Shown here: positions 28,828 to 44,196 of the stretch, piece by piece
Layout of the letters: every line of letters begins with the position of its first letter
Position numbering within the stretch: position 1 is the stretch's first letter
Translations under genes and position numbers: made by a program
Assembly (NCBI RefSeq): GCF_000373565.1
Contig: NZ_KB891842.1
Span: 62,001 to 126,000 of the forward strand
Direction of reading: 5' to 3'
Source: Streptomyces sp. HmicA12
Lineage (GTDB): Bacteria; Actinomycetota; Actinomycetes; Streptomycetales; Streptomycetaceae
DNA length: 64,000 nt
Notes under the pieces: generated by a model
What the model was told of the DNA's origin: nothing
What the model saw: only the letters and a program-made list of their open reading frames with translations
Databases searched by the model: none

Positions 28828-28885
28828 TCCGCGCCGCGGGCACGGCGCACCTGGCGAACTCGGCGTGGACGAGGAGGACTTCCGC

Positions 28886-30148
28886 ATGGCAGGCAGCAGC
28901 ACCGGCACGACGGCCCGTGAACCGGGTGGTGACAACGAAGGGGAGGCGAAACCGGCATCGCCCCCGGGTCCGCGGCGCGTCCTGGGCGTCGGCATGGTCG
29001 GCTACGCGTTCATGGGCGCCGCCCACTCACAGGGGTGGCGCACCGTCGGCCGTGTCTTCGACCTGCCGCTCACGCCGCGGCTCGCCGCGGTCTGCGGACG
29101 CGACGGACAGGCCGTGCGGGCCGCGGCCGACCGGCTCGGCTGGGCCGCGGCGGAGACCGACTGGCGGTCGCTGATCGCCCGGGACGACGTCGACCTCGTC
29201 GATGTCTGCACGCCCGGCGACAGCCACGCGGAGATCGCCATCGCCGCGCTCGAGGCGGGCAAGCACGTGCTGTGCGAGAAGCCGCTCGCCAACACCGTCG
29301 AGGAGGCGGAGGCGATGACGGAGGCGGCCGAACGGGCCGCCGAGCGGGGACAGTTGGCGATGACCGGGTTCAACTACCGGCGTGTTCCGGCCATCGCCCT
29401 GGCCCGCCGCATGGTGGCCGAGGGGCGCGTCGGCGCCCTGCGGCACGTGCGGGTCAGCTATCTCCAGGACTGGCTCGTCGACCCGGCCTTCCCGCTGACC
29501 TGGCGGCTGCAGAAGGCGTACGCGGGATCCGGCGCACTCGGCGACCTGGGTGCGCACGCCGTCGACCTCGCCCAGTTCCTCGCGGGCGAGCCGGTGGCGG
29601 GGGTCTCGGCGCTCACCGAGACGTTCGTCAGGGAGCGTCCGCTGCTCGACGGCGCCTCGGCGGGCCTGTCCGCGGCCGGCGCGGGGGAGCGGGGCCTCGG
29701 CCAGGTCACGGTCGACGACGCCGCGCTCTTCACCGGCCGCTTCGCCTCCGGCGCGCTCGCCTCCTTCGAGGCGACCCGCTTCGCGACCGGCCGCAAGAAC
29801 GCCCTGAAGATCGAACTCAATGGTGAGCGAGGCTCGTTGGCCTTCGACCTTGAGCGACTCAACGAGCTCTACTTCCACGACCAGACCGAACCGGGCTACA
29901 GCGCCGGCTTCCGCCGCATCCTGGTCACCGAGCCCGACCACCCCTACCTGGAGGGGTGGTGGCCGCCGGGCCACGGTCTCGGCTACGAGCACACCTTCGT
30001 GCACCAGGCCCGCGACCTGGTGCACGCGATCGCCGAACGCACCCCGCCCGCACCGTCGTTCGCCGACGGGCTGCAGGTGCAGCGCGTCCTCGCCGCGGTC
30101 GAGGAGAGCGCCGCGAAGAACTCCGTCTACACCCCCGTACCGGTCTGA
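28886..30148 (+). CDS. Gfo/Idh/MocA-family NAD(P)-dependent oxidoreductase
   Basis: A 420-aa sugar or cyclitol dehydrogenase. The Rossmann motif is GVGMVGYAFMGAAHSQGW, followed by VDVCTPGDSHAEIAIAALEAGKHVLCEKPLANTVEEA, where the EKP motif carries the catalytic Lys. The C-terminal alpha/beta domain has YAGSGALGDLGAHAVDLAQFL. A hydrophilic N-terminal extension of about 30 residues precedes the Rossmann fold. ATG 28886 follows GAGGAGG; GTG 28865 is an alternative. Enzymes of this family oxidise C-1, C-2 or C-3 hydroxyls of sugars and inositols, which fits the 3-keto-sugar-related domains encoded downstream. Confidence 0.93.
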   Translation: MAGSSTGTTAREPGGDNEGEAKPASPPGPRRVLGVGMVGYAFMGAAHSQGWRTVGRVFDLPLTPRLAAVCGRDGQAVRAAADRLGWAAAETDWRSLIARDDVDLVDVCTPGDSHAEIAIAALEAGKHVLCEKPLANTVEEAEAMTEAAERAAERGQLAMTGFNYRRVPAIALARRMVAEGRVGALRHVRVSYLQDWLVDPAFPLTWRLQKAYAGSGALGDLGAHAVDLAQFLAGEPVAGVSALTETFVRERPLLDGASAGLSAAGAGERGLGQVTVDDAALFTGRFASGALASFEATRFATGRKNALKIELNGERGSLAFDLERLNELYFHDQTEPGYSAGFRRILVTEPDHPYLEGWWPPGHGLGYEHTFVHQARDLVHAIAERTPPAPSFADGLQVQRVLAAVEESAAKNSVYTPVPV

Positions 30149-30160
30149 GGAGGCCCTTCC

Positions 30161-31159
30161 GTGCCACGTCAGTTCACTCTCTTCACCGGCCAGTGGGCGG
30201 ACCTGCCTTTGGAGGAGGTCTGCCGACTGGCTCGCGACTTCGGCTACGACGGCCTGGAACTCGCCTGCTGGGGCGACCACTTCGAGGTCGACAAGGCGCT
30301 CGCCGACCCGGACTACGTGAAGGGCCGCCACACCGTCCTCGACAAGTACGGCCTCAAGTGCTGGGCGATCTCCAACCACCTGGTCGGCCAGGCCGTCTGC
30401 GACGCCATCATCGACGAACGCCACGAGGCGATCCTGCCCGCCCGGATCTGGGGCGACGGCGAGGCCGAGGGCGTACGGCAGCGGGCCGCCGCCGAGATCA
30501 AGGACACGGCCCGCGCGGCGGCGGCCTTCGGCGTCGACACGGTCATCGGCTTCACCGGCTCGTCGATCTGGCACCTGGTCGCGATGTTCCCGCCCGCGCC
30601 CGAGTCGATGATCGAGCGCGGCTACGAGGACTTCGCCGAGCGCTGGAACCCGATCCTCGACGTCTTCGACGCGGAGGGCGTCCGCTTCGCGCACGAGGTC
30701 CACCCGAGCGAGATCGCGTACGACTACTGGACGACGCACAAGGCGCTCGCCGCGGTCGACCACCGGCCGGCCTTCGGCCTCAACTTCGACCCGTCGCACT
30801 TCGTGTGGCAGGACCTCGACCCGGTCGGTTTCCTCTGGGACTTCCGCGACCGCATCTACCACGTCGACTGCAAGGAGGCGCGCAAGCGCCTCGACGGCCG
30901 CAACGGCCGCCTCGGCTCCCACCTCCCGTGGGGCGACCCGCGACGCGGCTGGGACTTCGTCTCGGCCGGCCACGGTGACGTGCCGTGGGAGGACGTGTTC
31001 CGCATGCTCCGCTCGATCGAGTACGCGGGCCCGATCTCGGTGGAGTGGGAAGACGCGGGCATGGATCGCCTCCAGGGCGCCCCGGAGGCGCTGCGCAGCC
31101 TGAAGGCGTTCGACTTCGAGCCGCCCACCTCGTCGTTCGATTCGGCGTTCAGCAGCTAG
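30161..31159 (+). CDS. Sugar phosphate isomerase/epimerase (AP-endonuclease-2 TIM barrel)
   Basis: 332 aa. TIM-barrel metal-site segments are visible: [36 protein letters not shown] and [10 protein letters not shown]. The start is GTG 30161 with GAGGAGG overlapping the stop of the preceding dehydrogenase gene. It resembles isomerases/epimerases or dehydratases such as IolE that act on keto-sugars. It probably follows the Gfo/Idh/MocA enzyme in a pathway. Confidence 0.92.
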
Positions 31160-31459
31160 CGCCCCGTAGCGGTGCGGGGAACTGCGCGACCAGCCACAAC
31201 GGACGCGCAGTCGCTGCACCCTGCCCAAAACCCCCTTTGTCCACGTGCAGGAGAAAGCTCAACGAACCTGCGCACAAGGTCTATCCGAGCAAGACAAACG
31301 CGGCTAACTTCCTGCCGTGTACATGGCACACAGTTCATGGCGCACAGTTCATGGCGCTCAGTCATGGCACGCCTCCGGGGTGACGGCGCACCCCGGCGCC
31401 CGCACCGCACGTCTACGCACCCATCCCGTACGGCCCACCCCGTTCCCGGAGGGATTTTC
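31159..31459 (+). repeat. Intergenic region with a dispersed repeat and 14-bp tandem repeats
   Basis: This 300-bp gap has no gene. The first 42 bp are a copy of the dispersed repeat (GCGGGGAACTGCGCGACCAG) right at the stop codon. At 31329-31369 CACAGTTCATGGCG occurs twice in tandem and a third, imperfect copy follows (CTCAGTCATGGCA). These lie 90-130 bp upstream of the next start, so they could be an operator array or promoter element. An independent promoter for the large secreted protein is likely. Confidence 0.65.
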
Positions 31460-34400
31460 GTGCACAGCAGCAGTAGAACCCGCAGCAGAACCGGAGCCGG
31501 GACCACACGGCGCTCCAGATTTCGCACCACCCTCGCTCTGCTCACCGGTTCCGTCCTGATCGGCTCGTCCCTGGCGCTGGCCGCGCCGGGCACGGCCAGC
31601 GCCCACCCGGACCACCCGGACGAGCCCGCCGCCGCATCGGACTTCCAGCAGGTCACCCTCGCCAAGGGCGCGGACGAGACCGGCGAGCCCATGTCGCTGG
31701 CCGTGCTCCCGGACCGCAGCGTCCTGCACACCTCCCGTGACGGCACCCTGCGCCTGACCGACGCGGGCGGCAGCACCTCCGTCGCCGGCAAGCTCGACGT
31801 GTACAGCCACGACGAGGAGGGCCTGCAGGGCGTCGGTATCGACCCGGGCTTCAAGGACAACCGGTTCATCTATCTCTACTACGCGCCGCCCCTGGACACC
31901 CCGTCCGGCGACGCCCCGGAGAACGGCACCGCCGCCGACTTCGCCAAGTTCGACGGCGTGAACCGCCTGGCCCGCTTCGTCCTCAAGGAGGACGGCACCC
32001 TCGACAAGGCCAGCGAGAAGAACATCCTCGAGGTCAAGACCTCCCGCGGCACCTGCTGCCACGTCGGCGGCGACATCGACTTCGACGCCGACGGCAACCT
32101 GTACCTGTCGACCGGCGACGACACCAACCCCTTCGCCTCCGACGGCTACACCCCGATCGACGAGCGGGCCGACCGCAACCCCGCCTTCGACGCGCAGCGC
32201 AGCTCCGGCAACACCAACGACCTGCGCGGCAAGGTGCTCCGCATCAAGGTGAAGGCCGACGGCACGTACGACATCCCCGAGGGCAACCTCTTCGCGCCGG
32301 GCACCGAGAAGACCCGCCCCGAGATCTACGCGATGGGCTTCCGCAACCCGTTCCGCATCAGCGTCGACAAGCCCACCGGCACCGTCTACGTGGGCGACTA
32401 CGGCCCGGACGCGGGCGCCGCCGACCCGAAGCGCGGCCCGGCGGGCCAGGTCGAGTTCGCCAAGATCACCAAGGCGGGCAACTTCGGCTGGCCGTACTGC
32501 ACCGGCAAGAACGACGCCTACGTCGACTACGACTTCGCCACCAAGGCGTCCGGCGCCACCTTCGACTGCGCCGCGCCGAAGAACACCTCGCCGAACAACA
32601 CCGGCATCACCGACCTGCCCGCGGCCCAGCCCGCCTGGATCCCGTACGACGGCCCGTCCGTGCCCGAGTTCGGCACCGGGTCCGAGTCGCCGATGGCCGG
32701 CCCCGTCTACCGCTACGACGCGAACCTCGACTCCCCGGTGAAGTTCCCCGAGGAGTACGACGGAGACTTCTTCGCCGGCGAGTTCGGCCGCCAGTGGATC
32801 AAGCGGATCGAGCAGGACGGCGACGGGAACGTCTCGAAGATCAACGACTTCCCGTGGTCCGGCACCCAGGTCATGGACAGCGCCTTCGGCCCCGACGGCG
32901 CGCTCTACGTCCTCGACTACGGCCTCTCCTGGTTCGGCGGCGACGAGCACTCCGCGCTCTACCGCATCGAGAACGCGACCGGCGGTCACTCGCCGATCGT
33001 CGAGGCCAAGGCCAGCAAGACCTCCGGTCAGTCGCCGCTGCGCACGACCTTCACGGCGACCGGCACCGACGCCGACGACGATCCCATCACCTACAGCTGG
33101 GACTTCGGCGACGGCACCAAGGGGACCGGCGCCAACCCGAGCCACACGTACCGCAAGGACGGCACGTACGTCGTGACCGTCACCGGTGACGACGGCACGG
33201 GACGCACCGGATCCGCCAACGTCCGTGTGGTCGTCGGCAACACCGCCCCGACGGTCGACTTCCAGTCCCCGGCGAACGGTTCGCTGTTCAAGTTCGGTGA
33301 CACCATCCCGTTCAAGGTCGCCGTCAGCGACCCCGAGGACGGCACGATCGACTGCTCCAAGGTCACCGTGCGCTACCTCCTGGGCCACGACAACCACGCC
33401 CACGAGCTCACCTCGGTCAAGGGCTGCGAAGGCACCATCACCGTGCCCGCGGACTCCGAGCACGACCCGAACGCCAACATCTACGGCGTGCTCGACGCCG
33501 AGTACACCGACGGCGGGGGCGGCGGCCAGGCCGCGCTGACCTCGCACGACCAGGTCCAGCTCCAGCCGCGCCACCGCCAGGCCGAGCACTACACCAAGCA
33601 GCAGGGCACCACGCTGCAGAACAAGACCGAGGCCAACGGCGGCAAGACCGTCGGCGACATCAACGACGGCGACTGGATCTCCTTCACCCCGTACAACCTC
33701 ACCGGCGCCAACAAGCTCACCGCCCGGATCTCCTCCGGCGGCGCGGGCGGCTTCCTCGAGGTGCGCACCGGGTCGGCGACCGGCACCCTGCTGGGCTCCA
33801 CCCCGGTCCCGGTGACGGGCGGCTGGGAGACGTTCCAGAACGTCGACGTGGCGCTGCGCAACGTCCCGAAGAAGACCACCGACCTGTACCTCGTGTTCAA
33901 GGGCGGTGACGGCGCGCTCTACGACGTCGACGACTTCGAGATCACCGGCGACGCCCCGGTGAAGGGCGCCAAGCGGGTCCTCGTCTTCTCCAAGACGGCC
34001 GGCTTCCGCCACGACGCGATCCCCGAGGGCATCGCCGCCCTGAAGGAACTCGGCGCGAAGAGCGACATCACCGTCGACGCCACCGAGTCCGCCGACCAGT
34101 TCACCACGAACAACCTCGCCCGTTACGACGCGGTGGTCTTCCTGTCCACCACGGGTGACGTCCTCAACGACACCCAGCAGAAGGCGTTCGAGGACTACAT
34201 CGCCAAGGGCGGCGGCTACATGGGCATCCACGCCGCCGCCGACACCGAGTACGACTGGGCCTACTACGGCGGCCTCGTCGGCGCCTACTTCGACTCGCAC
34301 CCGGCCGTCCAGAAGGCCACCGTGCGCGTCGAGGACCAGGCCAACCCGGCCACCGCGCACCTCGGCGGCGCCTGGGAGAAGACCGACGAGCTGTACAACT

Positions 34401-35191
34401 ACCGCACCAACCCGCGCGACAAGGTCCACGTCCTCGCCAACCTGGACGAGACCACGTACTCGGGCGGCACCATGAAGGGCGACCACCCGATCGCCTGGTG
34501 CCAGAGCTACGGCGGCGGCCGCTCCTTCTACACCGGCCTCGGCCACACCAAGGAGTCCTACGCCGACGAGGCCTTCCGCACCCACCTCCTCGGCGGCCTC
34601 AAGTACGCCGCCGGACAGGTCAAGGCGGACTGCAGGCCCAACAAGGACTACCGGCCGATCTTCAACGGCCAGTCCCTGGACGGCTGGAAGCAGGCAGGCC
34701 CCGGAAAGTTCAACGTCAAGGACGGCACCCTGGAGTCCGAGGGCGGCATGGGCCTGCTCTGGTACCAGGCCAAGGAGCTGAAGTCGTACTCCCTCAAGCT
34801 CGACTGGAAGATGCAGGGCGATGACAACTCCGGGATCTTCGTGGGCTTCCCGGCCTCCGACGACCCCTGGTCCGCGGTGAACAAGGGCTACGAGATCCAG
34901 ATCGACGCCACCGACGCGGCGGACCGCACCACGGGTTCGATCTACACGTTCAAGGCGGCGAACATCAAGGCCCGTGACGCGGCCCTGCGCCCGCCCGGCC
35001 AGTGGAACTCCTACGAGATCAGGGTCCAGGGCGAACGCCTCCAGGTGTTCCTCAACGGAGTCAAGATCAACGACTTCACCAACAAGGACCCCGAGCGGAG
35101 CCTGACCGACGGCTACGTCGGCATCCAGAACCACGGCGCCGACGACCAGGTCTCCTTCCGCGACATCCAGCTCAAGCAACTGCCCGACTAG
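31460..35191 (+). CDS. Secreted multidomain sugar dehydrogenase/PKD/CBM6/ThuA/3-keto-disaccharide hydrolase protein
   Basis: 1243 aa. The signal peptide (residues 1-48) contains an RRSRF pair and ends near TASA. Residues ~60-505 are a glucose/sorbosone-dehydrogenase-type propeller (GLQGVGIDPGFKDN, GNTNDLRGKVLRI, EIYAMGFRNPFRIS). Residues ~515-593 are a PKD domain (YSWDFGDGTKGTG). Residues ~595-695 form an Ig-like segment. Residues ~705-830 are a CBM6-like module (QAEHYTKQQG, NDGDWISF). Residues ~836-1054 are a ThuA domain (KRVLVFSKTAGFRHDAI, GGGYMGIHAA). Residues ~1063-1243 are a 3-keto-disaccharide hydrolase (DUF1080) domain (IFNGQSLDGWKQ, DDNSGIFVGF, NKGYEIQID). GTG 31460 has GGAGGG upstream. 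It probably binds, oxidises and cleaves sugars outside the cell and feeds the importer (inference). Confidence 0.93.
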   Translation: MHSSSRTRSRTGAGTTRRSRFRTTLALLTGSVLIGSSLALAAPGTASAHPDHPDEPAAASDFQQVTLAKGADETGEPMSLAVLPDRSVLHTSRDGTLRLTDAGGSTSVAGKLDVYSHDEEGLQGVGIDPGFKDNRFIYLYYAPPLDTPSGDAPENGTAADFAKFDGVNRLARFVLKEDGTLDKASEKNILEVKTSRGTCCHVGGDIDFDADGNLYLSTGDDTNPFASDGYTPIDERADRNPAFDAQRSSGNTNDLRGKVLRIKVKADGTYDIPEGNLFAPGTEKTRPEIYAMGFRNPFRISVDKPTGTVYVGDYGPDAGAADPKRGPAGQVEFAKITKAGNFGWPYCTGKNDAYVDYDFATKASGATFDCAAPKNTSPNNTGITDLPAAQPAWIPYDGPSVPEFGTGSESPMAGPVYRYDANLDSPVKFPEEYDGDFFAGEFGRQWIKRIEQDGDGNVSKINDFPWSGTQVMDSAFGPDGALYVLDYGLSWFGGDEHSALYRIENATGGHSPIVEAKASKTSGQSPLRTTFTATGTDADDDPITYSWDFGDGTKGTGANPSHTYRKDGTYVVTVTGDDGTGRTGSANVRVVVGNTAPTVDFQSPANGSLFKFGDTIPFKVAVSDPEDGTIDCSKVTVRYLLGHDNHAHELTSVKGCEGTITVPADSEHDPNANIYGVLDAEYTDGGGGGQAALTSHDQVQLQPRHRQAEHYTKQQGTTLQNKTEANGGKTVGDINDGDWISFTPYNLTGANKLTARISSGGAGGFLEVRTGSATGTLLGSTPVPVTGGWETFQNVDVALRNVPKKTTDLYLVFKGGDGALYDVDDFEITGDAPVKGAKRVLVFSKTAGFRHDAIPEGIAALKELGAKSDITVDATESADQFTTNNLARYDAVVFLSTTGDVLNDTQQKAFEDYIAKGGGYMGIHAAADTEYDWAYYGGLVGAYFDSHPAVQKATVRVEDQANPATAHLGGAWEKTDELYNYRTNPRDKVHVLANLDETTYSGGTMKGDHPIAWCQSYGGGRSFYTGLGHTKESYADEAFRTHLLGGLKYAAGQVKADCRPNKDYRPIFNGQSLDGWKQAGPGKFNVKDGTLESEGGMGLLWYQAKELKSYSLKLDWKMQGDDNSGIFVGFPASDDPWSAVNKGYEIQIDATDAADRTTGSIYTFKAANIKARDAALRPPGQWNSYEIRVQGERLQVFLNGVKINDFTNKDPERSLTDGYVGIQNHGADDQVSFRDIQLKQLPD

Positions 35192-35401
35192 GGCCCACCC
35201 GGCTGATCCGGTCGCACGAGGGCGACGGCACGCCCTCGACCCGCACCCGCACCCGCGACCGGATCCGCCGCCATGGCCCCCGGGCCATCGAACGGCGGCG
35301 GGCGGAGGACGCCGGACCTCCGCCCGCCGTCCCACCCCACCCCGTCCGGCACCGCTCATTCCAGGCTCACCCCCGGTTCGTGTTCGACAAGGAGGCTGCC
35401 C
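35192..35401 (+). terminator. Two adjacent stem-loops after the secreted protein gene
   Basis: A two-tier structure spans 35205-35265: outer arms GATCCGGTCGC/GCGACCGGATC (11 bp) enclose inner arms CGAGGGCG/CGCCCTCG (8 bp). A second hairpin at 35296-35308 and 35317-35329 has a 13-bp GC-rich stem. No gene is seen. Termination or attenuation before the ebo-like operon is likely, with that operon's promoter in the remaining ~70 bp. Confidence 0.6.
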
Positions 35402-36541
35402 ATGTCCGCCGAACCGTCCCTCCCCACCACCTCGCCCCGCTTCGGTGTCTGGCTCATCGGCGCCCGCGGCTCCGTCGCCACGACCGCCGTCGCGGGCTGC
35501 GCCGCCGTCGCCGCGGGACTGCACCCGCCGACCGGCATGGTCACCGAGACCACCCCCTTCACCGACTCCGGTCTGCCAACGTTGTCGTCGCTCGTCTTCG
35601 GCGGCCACGACACCACCTCCTGTCCGCTGCCCAAACGCGCCGAACAACTGGCCGCGGGCGGTGTCCTGCCGCACGGCCTCCCCGCCGCGGTCCACGCCGA
35701 ACTGGCCGCCGCCGACCGGGAGATCCGCCCCGGCGGCCCGCTGCCCGGCCGCGACGACACCCGCTCGCAGGACGAGCTGATCGACACCTTCGCCGCCGAT
35801 ATCCGCGCTTTCGTACGGGACCAGGGCCTCGCCGGCGCGGTCGTCGTGAACGTCGCCTCGACCGAACCCGTCCCCACCGACGGCGCCCTGCCGCCCAGCT
35901 CCCTCTACGCCGCGGCCGCTCTGTGCGCCGACTGCCCCTACGTCAACTTCACCCCCTCGTCAGGCCTGCACCATCCGTCCCTCGCGGAGCCGGCCGCGTC
36001 GGCCCGTGTCCCCTTCGCGGGCCGCGACGGCAAGACGGGGCAGACCCTCCTGCGCTCCGTGCTCGGCCCGATGTTCCTGCAGCGCGCCCTCGCCGTACGC
36101 GCCTGGTCCGGCACCAACCTCCTCGGCGGCGGCGACGGCGCCGCCCTCGCCGACCCGGCCGCGGCCGCCGCCAAGAACGCCGGCAAGGAACGCGTCCTCA
36201 CCGACACCCTCGGCACCACCCCGCAGGGCGAGGTCCACATCGACGACGTCCCCGCCCTCGGTGACTGGAAGACCGCCTGGGACCACATCGCGTTCGACGG
36301 CTTCCTCGGCGCCCGCATGGTCCTCCAGACCACCTGGCAGGGCTGCGACTCCGCACTCGCCGCACCCCTGGTCCTGGACCTGGCCCGGCTGCTGCTGCGC
36401 GCCCGGGCCGTCGGACTGACCGGCCCGCGACCGGAGCTGGCCTTCTACTTCAAGGACCCGGACCCCGGGTCGTCCGCGGCCCTGGGCGAGCAGTACGCCA
36501 CACTGGTGGACTTCGCGGCCCGCCTGCGAGGCGCAGTATGA
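35402..36541 (+). CDS. Inositol-3-phosphate-synthase-like protein
   Basis: 379 aa. The N-terminal Rossmann motif GVWLIGARGSVATTAVAGCAAVAAGL and the stretches VVVNVASTEPVP, YVNFTPSSGLHHPSL and GQTLLRSVLGPMFLQRALAVRAWSGTNLLGG are those of myo-inositol-1-phosphate synthase-like proteins. ATG 35402 follows AAGGAGG. It starts a seven-gene plus-strand operon in which neighbouring genes overlap or nearly abut. In ebo clusters of other bacteria a 3-dehydroquinate-synthase-like EboD supplies a cyclised sugar; this protein could fill that role with a cyclitol phosphate. That is a hypothesis. Confidence 0.88.
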   Translation: MSAEPSLPTTSPRFGVWLIGARGSVATTAVAGCAAVAAGLHPPTGMVTETTPFTDSGLPTLSSLVFGGHDTTSCPLPKRAEQLAAGGVLPHGLPAAVHAELAAADREIRPGGPLPGRDDTRSQDELIDTFAADIRAFVRDQGLAGAVVVNVASTEPVPTDGALPPSSLYAAAALCADCPYVNFTPSSGLHHPSLAEPAASARVPFAGRDGKTGQTLLRSVLGPMFLQRALAVRAWSGTNLLGGGDGAALADPAAAAAKNAGKERVLTDTLGTTPQGEVHIDDVPALGDWKTAWDHIAFDGFLGARMVLQTTWQGCDSALAAPLVLDLARLLLRARAVGLTGPRPELAFYFKDPDPGSSAALGEQYATLVDFAARLRGAV

Positions 36542-37596
36542 GCAGCTCAGCCCTGCGCGCCTGGGCCGAACTCCTGCGCCTGCCGGCCCTGTTCACCGTC
36601 CCCGGCGACGCCCTGGCGGGAGCGGCGGCGGTCGGCACACCCCCTGGCCGCGGCACCTTCCTCGCCATCGGCTCCTCGCTCTGCCTGTACGAGGCGGGCA
36701 TGGCCCTCAACGACTGGGCGGACCGTGCCGAGGACGCCGTCGACCGCCCCCATCGCCCCATCCCGTCGGGCCGCATCCGCCCCGCCGCGGCCCTGGCCGC
36801 GGCCGGAGCCTTCACCGCGGCCGGCGTGACCCTGGCCTTCCGCGCGGGCCGCACCCCCGGCCTGCTGGGCACCGCCCTCGCGGCGACGGTGTGGGCATAC
36901 GACCTGGGCCTGAAGCACACCCCGGCGGGTCCGGCCGCCATGGGCGCGGCCCGCGGCCTCGACGTCCTCCTCGGCGCAGGCGCCGCCCACCACGACTCCG
37001 TGAAGTCGCACCGCGCGAGTGGACGTGCGCCCGCACCTGCGGCGTCGGCCTCGGCAGGACGAGCGGCGTCGAGCCCTGTCGGCGCGACCGGACAACCTGC
37101 CACGCCGTCCCGGCCCCGCCGCTCGACTTCCGCGGCCGCGCCGCCCTTGACCGGTGGTCGCGGCGCCGACGCTCCGCGGCCCCTGCGCGCCGCCGCGACC
37201 GCCGCTCTGGTCCTCGCCACCCACACCGTCGCCGTCACCACGGTGTCCCGCCACGAGACGACGGGTGGGAACGTTCTGGCGCCGGCGGCGGCGCTGGCCA
37301 CCACAGCAGCCCTGACCACCGCTCTCCTCAGACCCCCGGTGGGCCGAGGCGCCGCAGCCCCCCTCGGCCTACCGGGTCCCACCGCATACGCCGTCACCAC
37401 GGCCCGCCCCCTTCTCCACGCCACGCTCAACCCCTCCCCACCCCTCACCCAAAGCGCCGTGGGCGCCGGGATCCGCGCGATGATCCCCCTCCAGGCGGCA
37501 CTGGCCGCCCGGGCCGGAGCTCCCCGAACAGCCCTCGTCACCGCGGCGCTCGCCCCGCTCGCCCGTCGCTTCGCGAAGCGGGTGAGTGTCACATGA
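36538..37596 (+). CDS. eboC: UbiA-like prenyltransferase-fold membrane protein (EboC)
   Basis: 352 aa. Its membrane part carries the first UbiA Asp motif in LNDWADRAEDAVDRPHRPIP, which normally binds a prenyl diphosphate through Mg2+. About 65 residues of low-complexity Ala/Pro/Ser/Arg sequence (~residues 155-220) interrupt the middle loop, and the second Asp-rich motif is not recognisable. Starts with ATGA overlap on the previous gene. EboC homologues are thought to help move a metabolite across the membrane; prenyl transfer is not proven. Confidence 0.85.
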   Translation: MSSSALRAWAELLRLPALFTVPGDALAGAAAVGTPPGRGTFLAIGSSLCLYEAGMALNDWADRAEDAVDRPHRPIPSGRIRPAAALAAAGAFTAAGVTLAFRAGRTPGLLGTALAATVWAYDLGLKHTPAGPAAMGAARGLDVLLGAGAAHHDSVKSHRASGRAPAPAASASAGRAASSPVGATGQPATPSRPRRSTSAAAPPLTGGRGADAPRPLRAAATAALVLATHTVAVTTVSRHETTGGNVLAPAAALATTAALTTALLRPPVGRGAAAPLGLPGPTAYAVTTARPLLHATLNPSPPLTQSAVGAGIRAMIPLQAALAARAGAPRTALVTAALAPLARRFAKRVSVT

Positions 37597-38699
37597 CCCC
37601 CCGTCTGACGCGCCCCGCCCCGCGCTGGGGCTACGGCACCAACGGCCTCACCGACCTTCGCCTCGACGACGCCCTCGCTCTCCTCTCCGACCTCGGCTAC
37701 GACGGCGTCGGCCTCACCCTCGACCACATGCACCTCGACCCGCAGGCCCCGGACCTCGCGACCCGTACCCGCCAGGTCGCCCGCACCCTGCACCGGCACC
37801 GCCTCACCGCCACCGTCGAGACCGGCGCCCGCTATGTCCTCGACCCGCGCCGCAAACACGGCCCCTCCCTCCTCGACCCCGATCCGGACGCCCGCGCGGC
37901 CCGTGTCCGACTACTCGTCCGCGCGGTCCAGGTCGCCGCCGATCTCGGAGCGCACGCGGTGCACTGCTTCAGCGGCATCACCCCGGCCGGCACCCACCCG
38001 GACATCGCGTGGCAGCGCCTGGCGCATGAACTGGGCCCCGTGCTGGACGCGGCCACCGGCGCGGGCGTCCCGCTCGCCATAGAGCCGGAACCCGGCCATC
38101 TCCTCGCCACACTCGCCGACTTCCACCACCTGCGCCGCACCCTCGGCAGCCCCGAGGCTCTCGGCCTCACCCTGGACATAGGCCACTGCCAGTGCCTGGA
38201 GCCCGAGTCGCCCGCCGACTGCATCAGGGCGGCGGCCCCCTGGCTGCGCCATGTCCAGATCGAGGACATGCGTCGCGGCGTCCATGAGCACCTGCCGTTC
38301 GGCGACGGCGAGATCGACTTTCCCCCTGTCCTCGACGCCCTGTCCGCCACCGGCTATCAGGGCCTGACCGTCGTCGAACTGCCCCGCCACTCCCACGCCG
38401 GCCCTCAACTCGCCGCCGAATCGCTCCGGTTCCTCCGTGCAGCGGCACGCGCGGGCGCGCCAACCGTGGCCTGGTCGGGGGAGGAGGCGCAGACCCACCC
38501 GGGTGCCGGGACCGGCGCCGGACCTCGTGCGCAGGCCCCCGACAGCGCGGCGTCGAGCAGCCCACCGGGGACGACGGGTTCGAGCCCCGAACCCGCCGAC
38601 CGGAACGAGCCCGGCCTCCACCCGAAGACGGCCGACCCGGCCAGGAGCGGGCTCCGGACAACGACGAGCGGCCGGATCGCGGGAGGAGGCACCTCATGA
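37593..38699 (+). CDS. TIM-barrel sugar phosphate isomerase/epimerase, ebo-operon associated
   Basis: 368 aa. The first ~285 residues are an AP-endonuclease-2-type barrel with metal-site segments LAIEPEPGHLL, GLTLDIGHCQCLE, HVQIEDMRRGVHEHLPFGDGEID and TVVELPRHS. The last ~80 residues are a low-complexity Pro/Ser/Gly/Ala tail. ATGA overlaps at both ends couple it to eboC and eboA. Substrate unknown; presumably the cyclic or keto-sugar intermediate of this operon. Confidence 0.88.
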   Translation: MTPRLTRPAPRWGYGTNGLTDLRLDDALALLSDLGYDGVGLTLDHMHLDPQAPDLATRTRQVARTLHRHRLTATVETGARYVLDPRRKHGPSLLDPDPDARAARVRLLVRAVQVAADLGAHAVHCFSGITPAGTHPDIAWQRLAHELGPVLDAATGAGVPLAIEPEPGHLLATLADFHHLRRTLGSPEALGLTLDIGHCQCLEPESPADCIRAAAPWLRHVQIEDMRRGVHEHLPFGDGEIDFPPVLDALSATGYQGLTVVELPRHSHAGPQLAAESLRFLRAAARAGAPTVAWSGEEAQTHPGAGTGAGPRAQAPDSAASSSPPGTTGSSPEPADRNEPGLHPKTADPARSGLRTTTSGRIAGGGTS

Positions 38700-39463
38700 C
38701 AAGCCCGAAGCACGCGGACAACCCAGAAGCGCCGACGAGTCCCAACACCCCGGACGGCACCGGTGCGTCGGTGACCTCTCCGCCCCCCGAAGCCACACCC
38801 TTGCCGAGCAGCCCGAGCAGCCCGAGCAGCCCGAGCAGCGCCTCGGACGCCCTCCGCGCCGAGCTCGACGCGTCCCTCCCCGGAAGCGCCCGTGCCTGGC
38901 TCGACCAGGCGCTGGCCGAAGCAGCCGCCGACAGCGGTGACGGTCGGGAAACCGAGCCGCCCGTATGGGAGTTGAGATTCGCCGAAGCCGGCCGCCGCAC
39001 CGGGCACGACCACGCCGACGCCACCCGCGTGCTCCTGCTGCACACCGCCCGCGCCGGCACGGACACCCTCACGCGCCTGTACGCCCAGGGTTCGGCCGCC
39101 GAACGCCGCGCTGTCCTGCACGCCCTGCCCGCCCTCGTCCCCGGCCCCGAGGGACTGCCGCTGATCGAGGACGCGCTGCGGACGAACGACACCCGGCTCG
39201 TCGCCGCGGCCGTCGGCCTGTACGCCGCGGCACACCTGCCCGCCCACCAGTGGCGGCACGCCGTCCTGAAGTGCCTGTTCACCGGCGTCCCCGTCGCGGC
39301 CGTCGCCGAACTGCCGGAGCGCGCCCACGGCGACAGCGAACTCGCCCGCATGCTCGGCGACTTCGCGGCGGAGCGGACCTCCGCCGGCCGGCCCGTCCCC
39401 GACGACCTGCACCGCGTCCTGGCCCTGACGTCCCCCGCGTCCCCCACGGCGAAGGAGTCCTGA
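38696..39463 (+). CDS. eboA: EboA-family metabolite traffic protein
   Basis: 255 aa. After a disordered N-terminus that contains a Ser-Ser-Pro repeat, residues ~50-250 form an alpha-helical domain with TRVLLLHTARAG, AERRAVLHALPAL and RHAVLKCLFTGVPVAAVAELPERA, which match EboA. EboA has no known catalytic activity. The stop overlaps the next start (TGATG). The head is encoded by four 9-bp tandem units at 38804-38839. Confidence 0.85.
   Translation: MTSPKHADNPEAPTSPNTPDGTGASVTSPPPEATPLPSSPSSPSSPSSASDALRAELDASLPGSARAWLDQALAEAAADSGDGRETEPPVWELRFAEAGRRTGHDHADATRVLLLHTARAGTDTLTRLYAQGSAAERRAVLHALPALVPGPEGLPLIEDALRTNDTRLVAAAVGLYAAAHLPAHQWRHAVLKCLFTGVPVAAVAELPERAHGDSELARMLGDFAAERTSAGRPVPDDLHRVLALTSPASPTAKES
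38804..38839 (+). repeat. Four tandem copies of CCGAGCAGC inside eboA
   Basis: Four perfect 9-bp units encode Pro-Ser-Ser repeats in the disordered head of EboA. Copy-number changes would keep the frame. Confidence 0.85.
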
Positions 39464-40314
39464 TGCGCATCTTCGACCCCCACATCCACATGACGTCCCG
39501 CACCACCGACGACTACGAGGCCATGCACGCGGCCGGAGTCCGTGCCCTGGTGGAGCCCGCCTTCTGGCTGGGCCAGCCCCGTACCTCGCCCGCCTCCTTC
39601 TTCGACTACTTCGACGCCCTGCTCGGCTGGGAGCCCTTCCGCGCCGCCCAGTACGGCATCACCCATCACTGCACCATCGCCCTCAACCCCAAAGAGGCCA
39701 ACGACCCCCGCTGCACCCCGGTCCTCGACGCCCTGCCGCGCTACCTCGTCAAGGACAACGTCGTCGCCGTCGGCGAGATCGGCTACGACTCGATGACCCC
39801 GGCCGAGGACACCGCCCTCGCCACCCAGCTCCAACTCGCCGCCGACCACGACCTCCCCGCGCTGGTGCACACCCCGCACCGCGACAAGCTCGCGGGCCTG
39901 CGCCGCACCCTCGACGTCGTCCGGGAATCCGCCCTGCCCGTCGACCGGGTCCTGATCGACCACCTGAACGAGACCACGGTCAAGGAGGCCAAGGACGCCG
40001 GCAGCTGGCTCGGCTTCTCCGTCTATCCCGACACCAAGATGGACGAGGACCGGATGGTCGAGATCCTGCGCACCTTCGGAACCGAGAAGGTCCTGGTCAA
40101 CTCCGCGGCCGACTGGGGAAAGAGCGACCCCCTCAAGACCCGCAAGGTCGCCGAGGCGATGCTGAAGGCCGGCTTCGACGACGATGACGTCGACCTGGTC
40201 CTGTGGCGCAACCCCGTGGCCTTCTACTCGCTCAGCGGCCGCCTCCAACTCGACGCGCCACCGACGGATGCCGCGACCCACGAGGGCAACTCCATCCTGC
40301 GCGGCGGGGCGTGA
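39463..40314 (+). CDS. eboB: TatD-family metal-dependent hydrolase (EboB)
   Basis: 283-aa amidohydrolase-fold protein. Metal ligands are visible in the N-terminal HxH (FDPHIHMTSRT), the Glu of AVGEIGYDS, LVHTPHRDK, LIDHLNE and the Asp of VNSAADWG. TatD proteins are nucleases or hydrolases; the ebo member is assigned to metabolite export by genetic context in other bacteria. Translationally coupled to eboA, with a 3-bp gap to eboE. Confidence 0.88.
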   Translation: MRIFDPHIHMTSRTTDDYEAMHAAGVRALVEPAFWLGQPRTSPASFFDYFDALLGWEPFRAAQYGITHHCTIALNPKEANDPRCTPVLDALPRYLVKDNVVAVGEIGYDSMTPAEDTALATQLQLAADHDLPALVHTPHRDKLAGLRRTLDVVRESALPVDRVLIDHLNETTVKEAKDAGSWLGFSVYPDTKMDEDRMVEILRTFGTEKVLVNSAADWGKSDPLKTRKVAEAMLKAGFDDDDVDLVLWRNPVAFYSLSGRLQLDAPPTDAATHEGNSILRGGA

Positions 40315-40317
40315 CCC

Positions 40318-41490
40318 ATGCGCTTCCGCCACCCCGACGGATCCACCGTCCACCTCGCCTACTGCACGAACGTGCACCCCGCCGAGACCCTCGACGGCGT
40401 CCTCGCACAGCTCCGCGACCACTGCGAACCCGTCCGCAAACGACTCGGCCGTGATCGCCTGGGCATCGGCCTGTGGCTCGCCAAGGACGCCGCCCGCTCC
40501 CTGACCACCGACCCGGCCGCCCTGCGCGGACTGCGCACCGAACTCGAACGGCGCGGCCTCGAAGTCGTCACCCTCAACGGCTTCCCCTATGAAGGCTTCG
40601 GCGCCGAAGAGGTCAAGTACCGCGTCTACCAGCCCGACTGGGCCGACCCGGAACGCCTCTCCCACACCGGCGACCTGGCCCGCCTGCTCGCCGCGCTGCT
40701 CCCCGCGGACGTCACCGAGGGCACCATCTCCACGCTCCCGCTCGCCTGGCGCACGGCGTACGACACGGAGCGCGCCGAGACCGCCCGCACGGCGCTCGTC
40801 ACCCTCGCCGAACGCCTCGACGCCCTCGAAGAGCTGACAGGGAAGTCGATCCGGATCGGCCTCGAACCCGAACCCGGCTGCGTCGTCGAGACCACCGCCG
40901 ACGCCATCGCCCCGCTCACCGCCGTCGACCGGCCCGACCGGATCGGCCTCTGCCTCGACACCTGCCACCTCGCCACCTCCTTCGAAGACCCGCGGACCGC
41001 ACTCGACGGCCTGGCCGCCGCGCACATCCCCGTCGTCAAATCGCAGCTCTCCGCCGCCCTGCATGCCGATAACCCCCGAACTCCCGCCGTACGCAGGGCA
41101 CTTGCCGCCTTCGACGAACCCCGCTTCCTTCACCAGACCCGCACCGTCACCGGCGACGGCCTGCGCGGCACCGACGACCTCGGCCCCGCCCTGAACGGTG
41201 CCGCCCTGCCGGACGCCACCGCCTGGCGCGCCCACTTCCACGTCCCCCTGCACGCGGCCCCCGCCGCCCCGCTCACCTCCACCCTCGGCGTCCTCAAGGA
41301 CACGCTGACCCGACTCGTCGGCGGCCCGCACCCGCGCACCCGCCACCTGGAGGTCGAGACCTACACCTGGCAGGCCCTGCCGCCGCAGCTGCGACCCCGC
41401 GCCCGCGCTCAGCTGGCCGACGGCATCGCCGCCGAACTCACGCTCGCCCGCGACCTGTTGACGGACCTCGGCCTGAAGGAACTGCCATGA
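40318..41490 (+). CDS. eboE: Metabolite traffic protein EboE (xylose-isomerase-like TIM barrel)
   Basis: 390 aa. TIM-barrel motifs RIGLEPEPGCVVET and IGLCLDTCHLATSFEDP, plus a long C-terminal extension (HLEVETYTWQALP), match EboE. The opening YCTNVHPAETLDGVL is a family hallmark. Overlaps the next gene by ATGA. Biochemical activity not established. Confidence 0.9.
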   Translation: MRFRHPDGSTVHLAYCTNVHPAETLDGVLAQLRDHCEPVRKRLGRDRLGIGLWLAKDAARSLTTDPAALRGLRTELERRGLEVVTLNGFPYEGFGAEEVKYRVYQPDWADPERLSHTGDLARLLAALLPADVTEGTISTLPLAWRTAYDTERAETARTALVTLAERLDALEELTGKSIRIGLEPEPGCVVETTADAIAPLTAVDRPDRIGLCLDTCHLATSFEDPRTALDGLAAAHIPVVKSQLSAALHADNPRTPAVRRALAAFDEPRFLHQTRTVTGDGLRGTDDLGPALNGAALPDATAWRAHFHVPLHAAPAAPLTSTLGVLKDTLTRLVGGPHPRTRHLEVETYTWQALPPQLRPRARAQLADGIAAELTLARDLLTDLGLKELP

Positions 41491-42884
41491 CGGACACGCC
41501 CCCGAAGCCGACACCCCTCCTCGTCCTGGACGTCGTCGGTCTCACCCCCCGCCTCCTCGACCACATGCCGCACCTCAAGTCACTCGGCCAGTCCGGTACC
41601 CGAGCGTCCCTCGGCACCGTGCTGCCCGCCGTCACCTGTGCCGCCCAGTCCACGTTCCTCACCGGCACCATGCCCTCCGAACACGGCATCGTCGGCAACG
41701 GCTGGTACTTCCGCGAACTCGGCGACGTCCTGCTGTGGCGCCAGCACAACGGCCTGGTCGCCGGCGACAAACTCTGGGACGCCGCCCGCCGCGCCCACCC
41801 CGGCTACACGGTCGCCAACATCTGCTGGTGGTACGCCATGGGCGCCGACACCGACATCACCATCACCCCCCGTCCGGTCTACTACGCCGACGGCCGCAAG
41901 GAACCCGACTGCTACACCCGGCCGCCGGCCCTGCACGACGAACTCACCGAGAAGTTCGGCACGTTCCCCCTCTTCCACTTCTGGGGCCCCGGCGCCGACC
42001 TCGTCTCCAGCCAGTGGATCATCGACGCCACCCGCCACGTCATCTCCACCCGGCACCCCGACCTGACCCTGTGCTACCTCCCGCACCTCGACTACGACCT
42101 GCAACGCTTCGGCCCGGACGACCCGCGCTCCCTGCGGGCCGCCGCCGAACTCGACGCGGCCCTCGCCCCTCTGCTCGACGACGCCAAGGCCGAGGGCCGC
42201 ACCGTCGTCGCCCTGTCCGAGTACGGCATCACCCGCGTCGAGCGGGCCGTCGACATCAACCGGGCACTGCGCCGCGCCGGCCTGCTCGAAGTGCACACCC
42301 AGGACGGCATGGAGTACCTCGACCCGATGGCCTCGCGCGCCTTCGCCGTCGCCGACCACCAGATCGCCCACATCTACGTGCGCCGCCCTGAGGACCTCGA
42401 CGTCACCCGTGCGGCCCTCGCCGACCTGCCCGGCATCGAGCAACTCCTCGACGACGAGGGCAAGAAGGCCCACCACCTCGACCACCCGCGCTCCGGCGAA
42501 CTCGTCGCCGTCGCGGAACCGGACGCCTGGTTCACGTACTACTACTGGCTCGACGACGACCGTGCGCCCGACTTCGCGCAGCTCGTCGAGATCCACCGCA
42601 AACCCGGCTACGACCCGGTCGAACTGTTCATGGACCCTCGCGACCCCTACGTCAAGGTCAAGGCCGCGAGCGCGCTCGCCCGCAAGAAGCTCGGCCTGCG
42701 CTACCGCATGGCCGTCGTACCGCTCGACCCCTCACCTATTCGCGGCAGCCACGGCCGCCTTCCCTCAGACACCGACAGTGACGACGGACCCGTCCTCATC
42801 AGCTCCACCCCCCACGCGTTCCCCGATCGCGTCGCCGCGACCGCCGTGAAATCCCTGCTCCTCAAGCTGGCAGGGCTGGGCTGA
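41487..42884 (+). CDS. Type I phosphodiesterase/nucleotide pyrophosphatase-like protein (EboF-like)
   Basis: 465 aa of the alkaline-phosphatase superfamily. The first metal Asp is in LLVLDVVGLTP, the nucleophile region is TCAAQSTFLTGTMPSEHG, and further metal ligands are in PHLDYDLQRFGP, SEYGITR and VADHQIAHIYV. In ebo clusters this gene type (eboF) may remove a phosphate from the trafficked metabolite. Last of the seven coupled genes. Confidence 0.88.
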   Translation: MTDTPPKPTPLLVLDVVGLTPRLLDHMPHLKSLGQSGTRASLGTVLPAVTCAAQSTFLTGTMPSEHGIVGNGWYFRELGDVLLWRQHNGLVAGDKLWDAARRAHPGYTVANICWWYAMGADTDITITPRPVYYADGRKEPDCYTRPPALHDELTEKFGTFPLFHFWGPGADLVSSQWIIDATRHVISTRHPDLTLCYLPHLDYDLQRFGPDDPRSLRAAAELDAALAPLLDDAKAEGRTVVALSEYGITRVERAVDINRALRRAGLLEVHTQDGMEYLDPMASRAFAVADHQIAHIYVRRPEDLDVTRAALADLPGIEQLLDDEGKKAHHLDHPRSGELVAVAEPDAWFTYYYWLDDDRAPDFAQLVEIHRKPGYDPVELFMDPRDPYVKVKAASALARKKLGLRYRMAVVPLDPSPIRGSHGRLPSDTDSDDGPVLISSTPHAFPDRVAATAVKSLLLKLAGLG

Positions 42885-43038
42885 GGCACACGCCACCCCA
42901 AGTCCCGCCCACAGAGAAGCAGTTACAGAGAGTGAAGCGCACGCCACCGACAACACGCCAGTGGCGTCCGACCCGCACGCCGGAGAACACCGGGCGACAC
43001 CCCGACGAACCCCGCACGAGAACCGGAGAGAGGCACCC

Positions 43039-44196
43039 GTGACCGACTTCCACGACACCCCCGCCACCGACGACGCCCTCAGACAGCGCCTCGGCATCAA
43101 CCGTCGCCGCTTCCTCAGCACCTGCACCGCTGTCGCCGCGGGCGCGGTCGCCGCACCCGTCCTCGGCGCCGCACCCGCCTTCGCCCAGCCGTCGCACGGG
43201 GACGGCGGCCACGGCCGGGGCCACGACCTCGTGCCGGCCGACAAGCGCGGCATCATCCTCTACACCGTCCGCGACGCGACCGGCCGTGACCCGCTCTCCA
43301 CCGACCTGCCCTCCGGCTTCCGCGAGGTGTTCAAGGAGCTGGCCCGGTACGGCTACCGGCAGGTCGAGTTCGCGGGCTACGGCCAGCACGCGAACGCCCC
43401 GGGCGGCGCCAACCTCGAATCGGCGCAGGGCGCCAAACTGCTGCGCTCGTGGCTCGACGCGTACGGTCTGCGCGCCCAGGGCAACCACGGCTTCATCCCG
43501 TCGTCGTGGCCGCTCAGCCAGGCCGACCTCGACACGTTCAAGAAGCACCTGGAGATTGCCAACATCCTCGGCATGGACCACATGGGCACCGGTGGCGACC
43601 CCACCAACAGCTCGTACAAGGCGGACTGGGACGTCGCCGCCGACAAGTGGAACGCCCTGGGCGAGATCGCCCACCGCGCCGGGATCAAGCTCTACACCCA
43701 CAACCACGACGCGGCGTACGGCTTCCTCCTCGACGGCGGCCCGCTGGACGCGCAGGGACGCCCGACGCGCAGCTCCGGCATCCGCAAGCTCGAGTACTTC
43801 CTCAAGGTCACCGACCCGAGGACGGTGTGGCTGGAGATGGACATCTTCTGGGCGCACGTGGCCCAGTACAAGTTCCACACGTACACCGCGCACGACGGCT
43901 CCCAGCGGGAGAAGGTCTTCGACCCGGCCGGCCTGGTCAGCGCCCACAACAAGCGCTACCCGCTGTTCCACGCCAAGGACGGCACCCGCAACGACACCAG
44001 CGGCCAGGGCTACGACATGGTCCCGTTCGGTGAGGGCGTCATCGACTACACCAGGTTCTTCGGCCGGGTCGGCGCGAAGAACTACCACAACCCCATGGTC
44101 GAGCAGGACAACGCGCCCAGTGACACGGACCTCGGCCAGTCCCTGAAGTACGCGAGGATCGGCTACGACAACCTGGCGGCGCTGCGCAAGAAGTGA
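43039..44196 (+). CDS. Tat-exported sugar phosphate isomerase/epimerase-like TIM-barrel protein
   Basis: 385 aa. A twin-arginine signal (INRRRFLSTC followed by a hydrophobic stretch and AFAQP) directs export of a folded, cofactor- or metal-bearing enzyme. The barrel has YTVRDAT, RQVEFAGYG, KLYTHNHDAAYGF and VWLEMDIFWAHVAQ. GTG 43039 is preceded by GGAGAGAGG. It is 154 bp from the ebo-like operon and may share its promoter or have its own. Secreted barrels of this type occur with ThuA/3-keto-sugar enzymes, so it may process the same extracellular sugars. Confidence 0.88.
   Translation: MTDFHDTPATDDALRQRLGINRRRFLSTCTAVAAGAVAAPVLGAAPAFAQPSHGDGGHGRGHDLVPADKRGIILYTVRDATGRDPLSTDLPSGFREVFKELARYGYRQVEFAGYGQHANAPGGANLESAQGAKLLRSWLDAYGLRAQGNHGFIPSSWPLSQADLDTFKKHLEIANILGMDHMGTGGDPTNSSYKADWDVAADKWNALGEIAHRAGIKLYTHNHDAAYGFLLDGGPLDAQGRPTRSSGIRKLEYFLKVTDPRTVWLEMDIFWAHVAQYKFHTYTAHDGSQREKVFDPAGLVSAHNKRYPLFHAKDGTRNDTSGQGYDMVPFGEGVIDYTRFFGRVGAKNYHNPMVEQDNAPSDTDLGQSLKYARIGYDNLAALRKK

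Follow-up and report, generated by a model that had tools for sequence, protein, structure and literature searches.

The closest described relatives of the operon analysed here are the ebo clusters of Cyanobacteria, Bacteroidota and eustigmatophyte plastids (PMC5133447, PMC6282210), which share with it EboA, EboB, an EboC-type UbiA prenyltransferase, EboE and EboF encoded together; in some actinobacteria a gene of the ScyE family adjoins ebo, as it does in scytonemin clusters. The sole genetics come from Nostoc, where each ebo gene tested was required for a metabolite to reach the periplasm, in which ScyE oxidises it (PMC6282210). The present operon lies in a 64,000-nucleotide stretch of Streptomyces sp. 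HmicA12 (contig NZ_KB891842.1, positions 62,001 to 126,000; hereafter the window, whose own numbering is used below). It consists of seven plus-strand genes at 35402–42884, read from the sequence as overlapping or nearly touching, in the order myo-inositol phosphate synthase (MIPS)-like gene, EboC, TIM barrel, EboA, EboB, EboE and EboF (Table 1). The MIPS-like protein stands where other clusters have EboD, a sugar phosphate cyclase resembling 3-dehydroquinate synthase (DHQS), and this arrangement is the standard ebo form of Actinomycetota rather than a peculiarity of the locus.

A MIPS-like cyclase in place of EboD

The operon contains no PF01761 gene and is therefore termed a variant rather than a classic ebo cluster. 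EboD was likewise absent from the rest of the 9.16 Mb genome: its single PF01761 gene, the only member of the DHQS family, adjoins aroK and an aroC-like gene and is aroB, which rules out an EboD hidden elsewhere. The remaining ebo components are present, with EboE and the EboA domain recognised above their family cut-offs and EboB and EboF encoded in the same operon. The EboA protein scored 51 bits against 320 for the full-length EboA family, below the cut-off, and EboC reached only 132 against a cut-off of 250 for the EboC model NF035940, the SCO3242 family giving the best score. ATGA overlaps join the MIPS-like gene to EboC, EboC to the TIM barrel, the TIM barrel to EboA and EboE to EboF, while the EboA/EboB junction is TGATG and EboB and EboE are separated by a 3-bp gap. 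Low-complexity sequence rich in A, P, S and G was observed in an EboC insert (~36990–37190; the protein has 352 aa against 287 positions in the family model), in the TIM-barrel tail (~38450–38695) and in the N-terminal extension of EboA (~38700–38860).

The MIPS-like protein carries both MIPS domains (PF07994 and PF01658), an N-terminal glycine-rich NAD-binding motif and four lysines, K258, K262, K290 and K351, which were invariant in 19 aligned proteins. These lysines align with K274, K278, K306 and K367, the catalytic lysines of the Archaeoglobus fulgidus enzyme. Alignment of the MIPS-like proteins with functional inositol-3-phosphate synthases (I3PS) covers their entire length, the best solved relatives being those of Bacteroides thetaiotaomicron and A. 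fulgidus, whereas the canonical actinobacterial INO1 model TIGR03450 gave 24 bits against 638. Because all four MIPS catalytic lysines are kept, a cyclitol-forming role for this putative enzyme is well supported.

Three MIPS-family genes were found in the genome: a canonical-looking I3PS gene on contig C4, that of the window, and one on contig C53, within another ebo operon of MIPS type (~269–277 kb; locus L023, 4982–12658). The second operon is surrounded by genes of non-ribosomal peptide synthetase (NRPS) type and genes for a carbamoyltransferase, a 4'-phosphopantetheinyl transferase and ABC/FtsX exporters.

The original prediction, made on the operon sequence, had proposed seven ebo-like genes joined by overlaps or tiny gaps, and the junctions and family assignments bear this out; the MIPS domains, the intact catalytic residues and the genome-wide absence of EboD likewise uphold its claim that an I3PS-like gene replaces EboD. 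Its suggestion of a cyclitol-based metabolite is consistent with the retained residues, the missing EboD and a conserved exchange that appears to have happened at least twice (see below). The operon coordinates that it gave were correct, but the conserved unit is larger (~28865–44196), and by stopping at the operon it missed both the second ebo copy and a flanking block of genes for extracytoplasmic sugar oxidation. The single deletion that it proposed would be confounded in this strain, where the second operon may mask the effect.

Active sites of the accessory proteins

The NDxxDxxxD and YDxxxK motifs of EboC, its two prenyl-diphosphate motifs, were kept in 86 EboC proteins, including 64 from EboD-type clusters. 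In the TIM barrel, E158/E160, D189, H192, H225 and E256 (numbered from the first aligned residue) are conserved and are likely metal ligands. The HxH, E, H, H, D set of EboB, which corresponds to the TatD metal set, was conserved in 83 EboB proteins. A fold search with EboA gave only weak α-solenoid matches (best E 0.085); the predicted α-solenoid would be consistent with the scaffold role proposed for this protein (PMC6282210).

EboF has an NPP fold, with a Foldseek match to the Xac NPP (E 1e-18), and the T50 nucleophile was kept in 87 of the 87 proteins scored. The zinc ligands of the Xac enzyme are D54, D210, H214, D257, H258 and H363. Across 89 EboF proteins D210 is kept, whereas four of the others are replaced in nearly all (D54 by V, H214 by Q, D257 by E and H258 by Y), so that the two-zinc ligand set of NPP enzymes is not present; this altered site spans bacteria to haloarchaea. 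With at least four ligands lost, a phosphodiesterase or dephosphorylation step is doubtful and should not be assumed, and the dephosphorylation by EboF included in the original prediction is not borne out.

Distribution of the two cyclases

Among 150 Streptomyces genomes, the MIPS-like gene and EboE were both present in 101 and both absent in 40 (Fisher p 2e-26, uncorrected for relatedness). Of 116 MIPS-like matches, 91 lay within 10 kb of EboE (median ~4.9 kb), most of the others being on different contigs of draft assemblies. With few exceptions the two genes occur together or not at all, and their linkage in related genomes is far beyond chance, contrary to the unlinked genes that would have refuted the original prediction. 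Full ebo loci from actinobacteria outside Streptomyces contained MIPS in 29 of 30 cases, the TIM barrel in 26 of 30 and EboD in none, and Streptomyces plasmids and other actinobacterial families shared the seven-gene order. In other phyla, a scan identified 80 EboE loci, of which 69 had EboD and none MIPS. Across 98 classified loci the two cyclases did not overlap (72 with EboD, 14 with MIPS); every one of the 14 MIPS loci in this first set also had the extra TIM barrel, which no EboD locus contained. Conservation across Streptomyces and other actinobacteria rules out a local oddity or chance adjacency.

MIPS is not, however, part of every actinobacterial ebo copy. Some second copies in Streptomyces have the arrangement C-TIM-A-B-E-F (L024, L173–L182), and two Streptomyces genomes possess only a MIPS-less copy, with a single PF01658 gene elsewhere. 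A homologue of an FAD oxidoreductase was observed near the MIPS-less copy in L024 and six others, lying directly upstream of EboC in L024. Some actinobacteria also carry EboE-like sequences with no other ebo genes nearby, either lone full-length genes or matches confined to the N-terminal two thirds of the EboE model (L294, L305, L307, L314, L315, L316–L320).

Repeated replacement and archaeal forms

A plasmid of Gemmatirosa carries MIPS and the TIM barrel beside EboC, EboF, EboB and EboE, and no PF01761 gene was found in the whole plasmid record, the chromosome being outside the search. Because EboD-type groups enclose the EboE, EboB and EboF of Gemmatirosa (in quick trees, with long-branch warnings), replacement of the cyclase appears to have occurred at least twice. 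Most ebo MIPS proteins formed their own subgroup in the MIPS tree, with Gemmatirosa apart from the rest and one haloarchaeal MIPS from outside ebo clusters falling inside the ebo-linked group; a single clade of all ebo-linked MIPS proteins was rejected (approximately unbiased (AU) test, p 0.0001). Plasmids of the haloarchaea Halobaculum, Halocatena and Natronococcus encode a reduced cluster of MIPS, EboF, TatD, UbiA/EboC and two TIM barrels, without EboA and EboE (Table 1).

YcaO clusters without any ebo genes also encode MIPS alongside a relative of this TIM barrel, and this co-occurrence suggests that the two proteins form a two-enzyme cyclitol module. Clusters of MIPS, Gfo/Idh, YcaO, a TIM barrel and a PIG-L deacetylase were seen in Roseomonas and Hymenobacter (L230 8638–18825, L231 8797–17498), and MIPS with the TIM barrel also in Methylobacterium (L232).

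Conserved neighbourhood and secreted β-propellers

All 40 Streptomyces loci of this type carry a fixed 11-gene block in which a dehydrogenase, an isomerase and a large secreted protein (39 of 40) lie upstream of the ebo genes and a further TIM barrel downstream (Table 1). The GSDH and ThuA domains of the secreted protein were each detected in 39 of the 40 blocks. Enzymes of the DUF1080/PF06439 type, to which its 3-keto-disaccharide hydrolase domain corresponds, cleave 3-keto-glycosides arising from periplasmic oxidation (PMC9007349). Homologues of the terminal TIM barrel, which is Tat-signalled in the window, were 34–87% identical across the 40 blocks. A 58% identical homologue of the upstream isomerase adjoins the Gemmatirosa cluster.

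Table 1. Genes of the ebo variant operon and its conserved neighbours in the window, with the reduced clusters of haloarchaeal plasmids (positions within the named loci).
Feature	Position	Strand	Evidence
Gfo/Idh/MocA dehydrogenase, conserved neighbour	28865..30148	+	Pfam; 40/40 Streptomyces blocks
TIM-barrel sugar isomerase, conserved neighbour	30161..31159	+	PF01261; 40/40 blocks, 84–94% identity
Large secreted protein: GSDH β-propeller, PKD, CBM6, ThuA, 3-keto-disaccharide hydrolase	31460..35191 (start inferred; frame open from 31172)	+	Pfam; signal-peptide-like N-terminus
MIPS/I3PS-like putative cyclase, EboD substitute, 379 aa	35402..36541	+	PF07994 1.7e-31; PF01658 6.1e-29 (both above cut-off)
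EboC-type UbiA prenyltransferase, SCO3242 family, 352 aa	36538..37596	+	NF045897, 354 bits vs cut-off 260
Xylose-isomerase-like TIM barrel, partner of the MIPS-like protein, low-complexity C-terminal tail	37593..38699	+	PF01261 2.7e-45
EboA, α-solenoid (predicted), low-confidence N-terminal extension	38696..39463	+	NF035938, 163 bits vs 50; AlphaFold mean pLDDT 87
EboB, TatD-family metal-dependent hydrolase	39463..40314	+	PF01026 1.1e-12
EboE, TIM barrel	40318..41490	+	NF035939, 428 bits vs cut-off 250
EboF, NPP/alkaline-phosphatase fold, altered metal site	41487..42884	+	PF01663 1.7e-68
TIM barrel with twin-arginine signal, conserved neighbour	42961..44196	+	PF01261; TIGR01409 above cut-off
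Haloarchaeal reduced MIPS-type ebo clusters	L226 5103-11653; L228 5229-11530; L229 4933-11606

Of 35 other actinobacterial loci, 16 had a GSDH gene close to ebo (0.6 expected); in other phyla the figure was 12 of 80 (13 genes, with 1.2 expected). These counts are uncorrected for shared ancestry, but several phyla and both types of cyclase contribute to them. ScyE-family genes were found just upstream of MIPS-type ebo genes in three loci: one is on a Streptomyces plasmid, and the other two, in different actinobacterial genomes, have the genes as tandem pairs. Extracytoplasmic β-propellers of the GSDH or ScyE family are recurrent neighbours of both kinds of ebo cluster.

Proposed role and alternatives

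The operon, the recurrent substitution of its cyclase, the catalytic residues and the association with secreted β-propellers are all read from sequence; from them we infer substrates, an order of steps and a prenyl-cyclitol with its role. The MIPS-like protein would form a cyclitol of the inositol-phosphate type from a sugar phosphate, glucose 6-phosphate being the likeliest substrate; the ring would usually be isomerised or dehydrated by the adjacent TIM barrel, so that together the two may stand in for the sedoheptulose-phosphate cyclase that EboD is assumed to be elsewhere. At the membrane EboC would prenylate the cyclitol or a derivative of it, EboB and EboE would remodel the prenyl-cyclitol with EboA as a scaffold, and EboF may work on the lipid-linked product through its changed NPP-type site. 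The lipid-linked cyclitol would then help a small molecule to reach, or act in, the space beyond the membrane, where a secreted β-propeller oxidoreductase would complete the process, here possibly the protein combining GSDH, ThuA and 3-keto-disaccharide hydrolase and in scytonemin clusters ScyE.

At about even confidence, we favour the reading that the cyclitol is lipid-linked and serves an extracytoplasmic oxidation system, because this reading joins the Nostoc genetics to the shared theme of a cytoplasmic cyclitol, a membrane prenyltransferase and an oxidoreductase outside. One EboC has been found to farnesylate a small ring acceptor in vitro (PMC9235831). Several observations weigh against this reading. 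The acceptor preferred by an EboC homologue is aromatic (8-hydroxyquinoline-2-carboxylate) and not a cyclitol, the Nostoc genetics left eboD undeleted, and no metabolite has been observed. The Streptomyces neighbours look catabolic (3-keto-glycoside handling), so that export of a metabolite is not obviously required, and the β-propeller enrichment, in which relatedness is uncorrected, is missing from many loci. Neither MIPS nor EboD accompanies some of the ebo copies in Streptomyces, this TIM barrel is missing from three actinobacterial loci that do have MIPS, and two proteobacterial clusters (L044 and L058, with the order E-C-A-B-F) lack both cyclases in the stretch read. Given these copies and clusters, the cyclase need not be encoded in the cluster and apparently may come from outside it.

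The product could instead be a stand-alone cyclitol natural product or a prenyl-inositol lipid unrelated to trafficking, with neighbours that vary by lineage, which we consider possible but fairly unlikely. The second ebo operon sits amid NRPS-type, 4'-phosphopantetheinyl transferase and ABC exporter genes, a setting repeated on a Streptomyces plasmid; SCO3242/3243 are listed with the calcium-dependent antibiotic (CDA) cluster; and a cyclitol-isoprenoid product has been proposed before (PMC5133447). The fixation of the 11-gene block, with its secreted sugar-oxidation genes, in 40 of 40 loci of the window's type (type I) and the recurrence of secreted β-propellers near unrelated ebo clusters weigh against such a product.

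An unlikely alternative of a different kind is that the ebo product is no export carrier but a membrane-bound redox mediator or cofactor, in the form of a prenylated cyclitol-derived ring, needed by extracytoplasmic β-propeller oxidoreductases (GSDH-like, ScyE). UbiA enzymes commonly make isoprenoid quinones. That both ebo types repeatedly lie near GSDH and ScyE proteins in different phyla favours a mediator, and the catabolic Streptomyces partners suit electron transfer better than export. No match at the level of pqqE was found in this genome or in six other Streptomyces tested, though the GSDH protein is encoded in this genome and its relatives; this is compatible with a mediator but does not prove one, pyrroloquinoline quinone (PQQ) being scavengeable. 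Against a mediator, pqqE is present in six of ten proteobacterial genomes with a nearby GSDH gene. As between carrier and cofactor, the outcome of the pqqE survey is no more than suggestive. The behaviour of the Nostoc monomer, which stays cytoplasmic in ebo mutants yet reaches the periplasm in a scyE mutant, is not simply explained by a cofactor (PMC6282210).

That the MIPS-like gene, a MIPS family member with intact catalytic lysines, is a passenger supplying ordinary inositol phosphate for phospholipids or mycothiol is very improbable: another copy, the canonical I3PS gene on contig C4, rules it out as the housekeeping enzyme, every other actinobacterial genome tested has a PF01658 gene outside ebo, and the ebo MIPS, very distant from the canonical form by its TIGR03450 score, tracks the ebo operon and excludes EboD.

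Returning to the lipid-linked cyclitol, we put forward with considerable doubt a wider proposal, that the ebo system, whose MIPS variant extends from actinobacteria to haloarchaea, could make a new prenylated cyclitol that serves a broad class of secreted β-propeller oxidoreductases (GSDH- and ScyE-like) as carrier or redox partner on the membrane side, its ring coming either from EboD or from MIPS and a TIM barrel.

Comparison with described systems

The ebo cluster, EboD and the presumed cyclitol were already known, and NCBI names the actinobacterial proteins piecemeal ('SCO3242 family prenyltransferase', 'inositol-3-phosphate synthase', 'EboE'); the MIPS variant itself is real and broad. 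As regards the original prediction that the locus is a candidate for an undescribed pathway, the form is not special to this locus and its pieces are annotated. In the literature searched, which excluded subscription journals, no description was found of the exchange of MIPS for EboD, of its archaeal form, of the changed metal site in EboF or of the linkage to secreted GSDH proteins.

Ebo chemistry has been a guess since 2016, and two unrelated cyclase families in one slot, with at least two independent switches between them, are strong genetic evidence for a cyclitol-containing product. The MIPS form brings ebo into tractable Streptomyces, with their fixed secreted sugar-oxidation block, and into archaea; with ScyE beside actinobacterial ebo genes, a topic of cyanobacterial sunscreens becomes a general question of what oxidoreductases outside the membrane receive from ebo.

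Compared with the classic ebo cluster, the operon in the window has a MIPS-like gene and an extra TIM barrel in place of EboD, the order MIPS-C-TIM-A-B-E-F and an EboC of the SCO3242 subfamily. The edible (EDB) cluster of Pseudomonas likewise contains a complete ebo set in a bacterium that does not make scytonemin, but it is of EboD type and is linked to a nematode-repellent phenotype (PMC6282210). In Streptomyces coelicolor, SCO3242 and SCO3243 pair a prenyltransferase of the same family with a myo-inositol phosphate synthase; their orthology is inferred from name and annotation, and their assignment to CDA carries no tested function. The I3PS of A. fulgidus (1u1i) and B. thetaiotaomicron (7nwr) belong to the same family as the MIPS-like protein and have the four lysines, but serve general inositol phosphate supply, and most ebo members group apart from them. 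Ari2, a five-membered cyclitol phosphate synthase (6k96), resembles the MIPS-like protein in being a member of the MIPS superfamily within a specialised pathway, although it is more distant than true I3PS (E 2.8e-27 against 1.8e-153).

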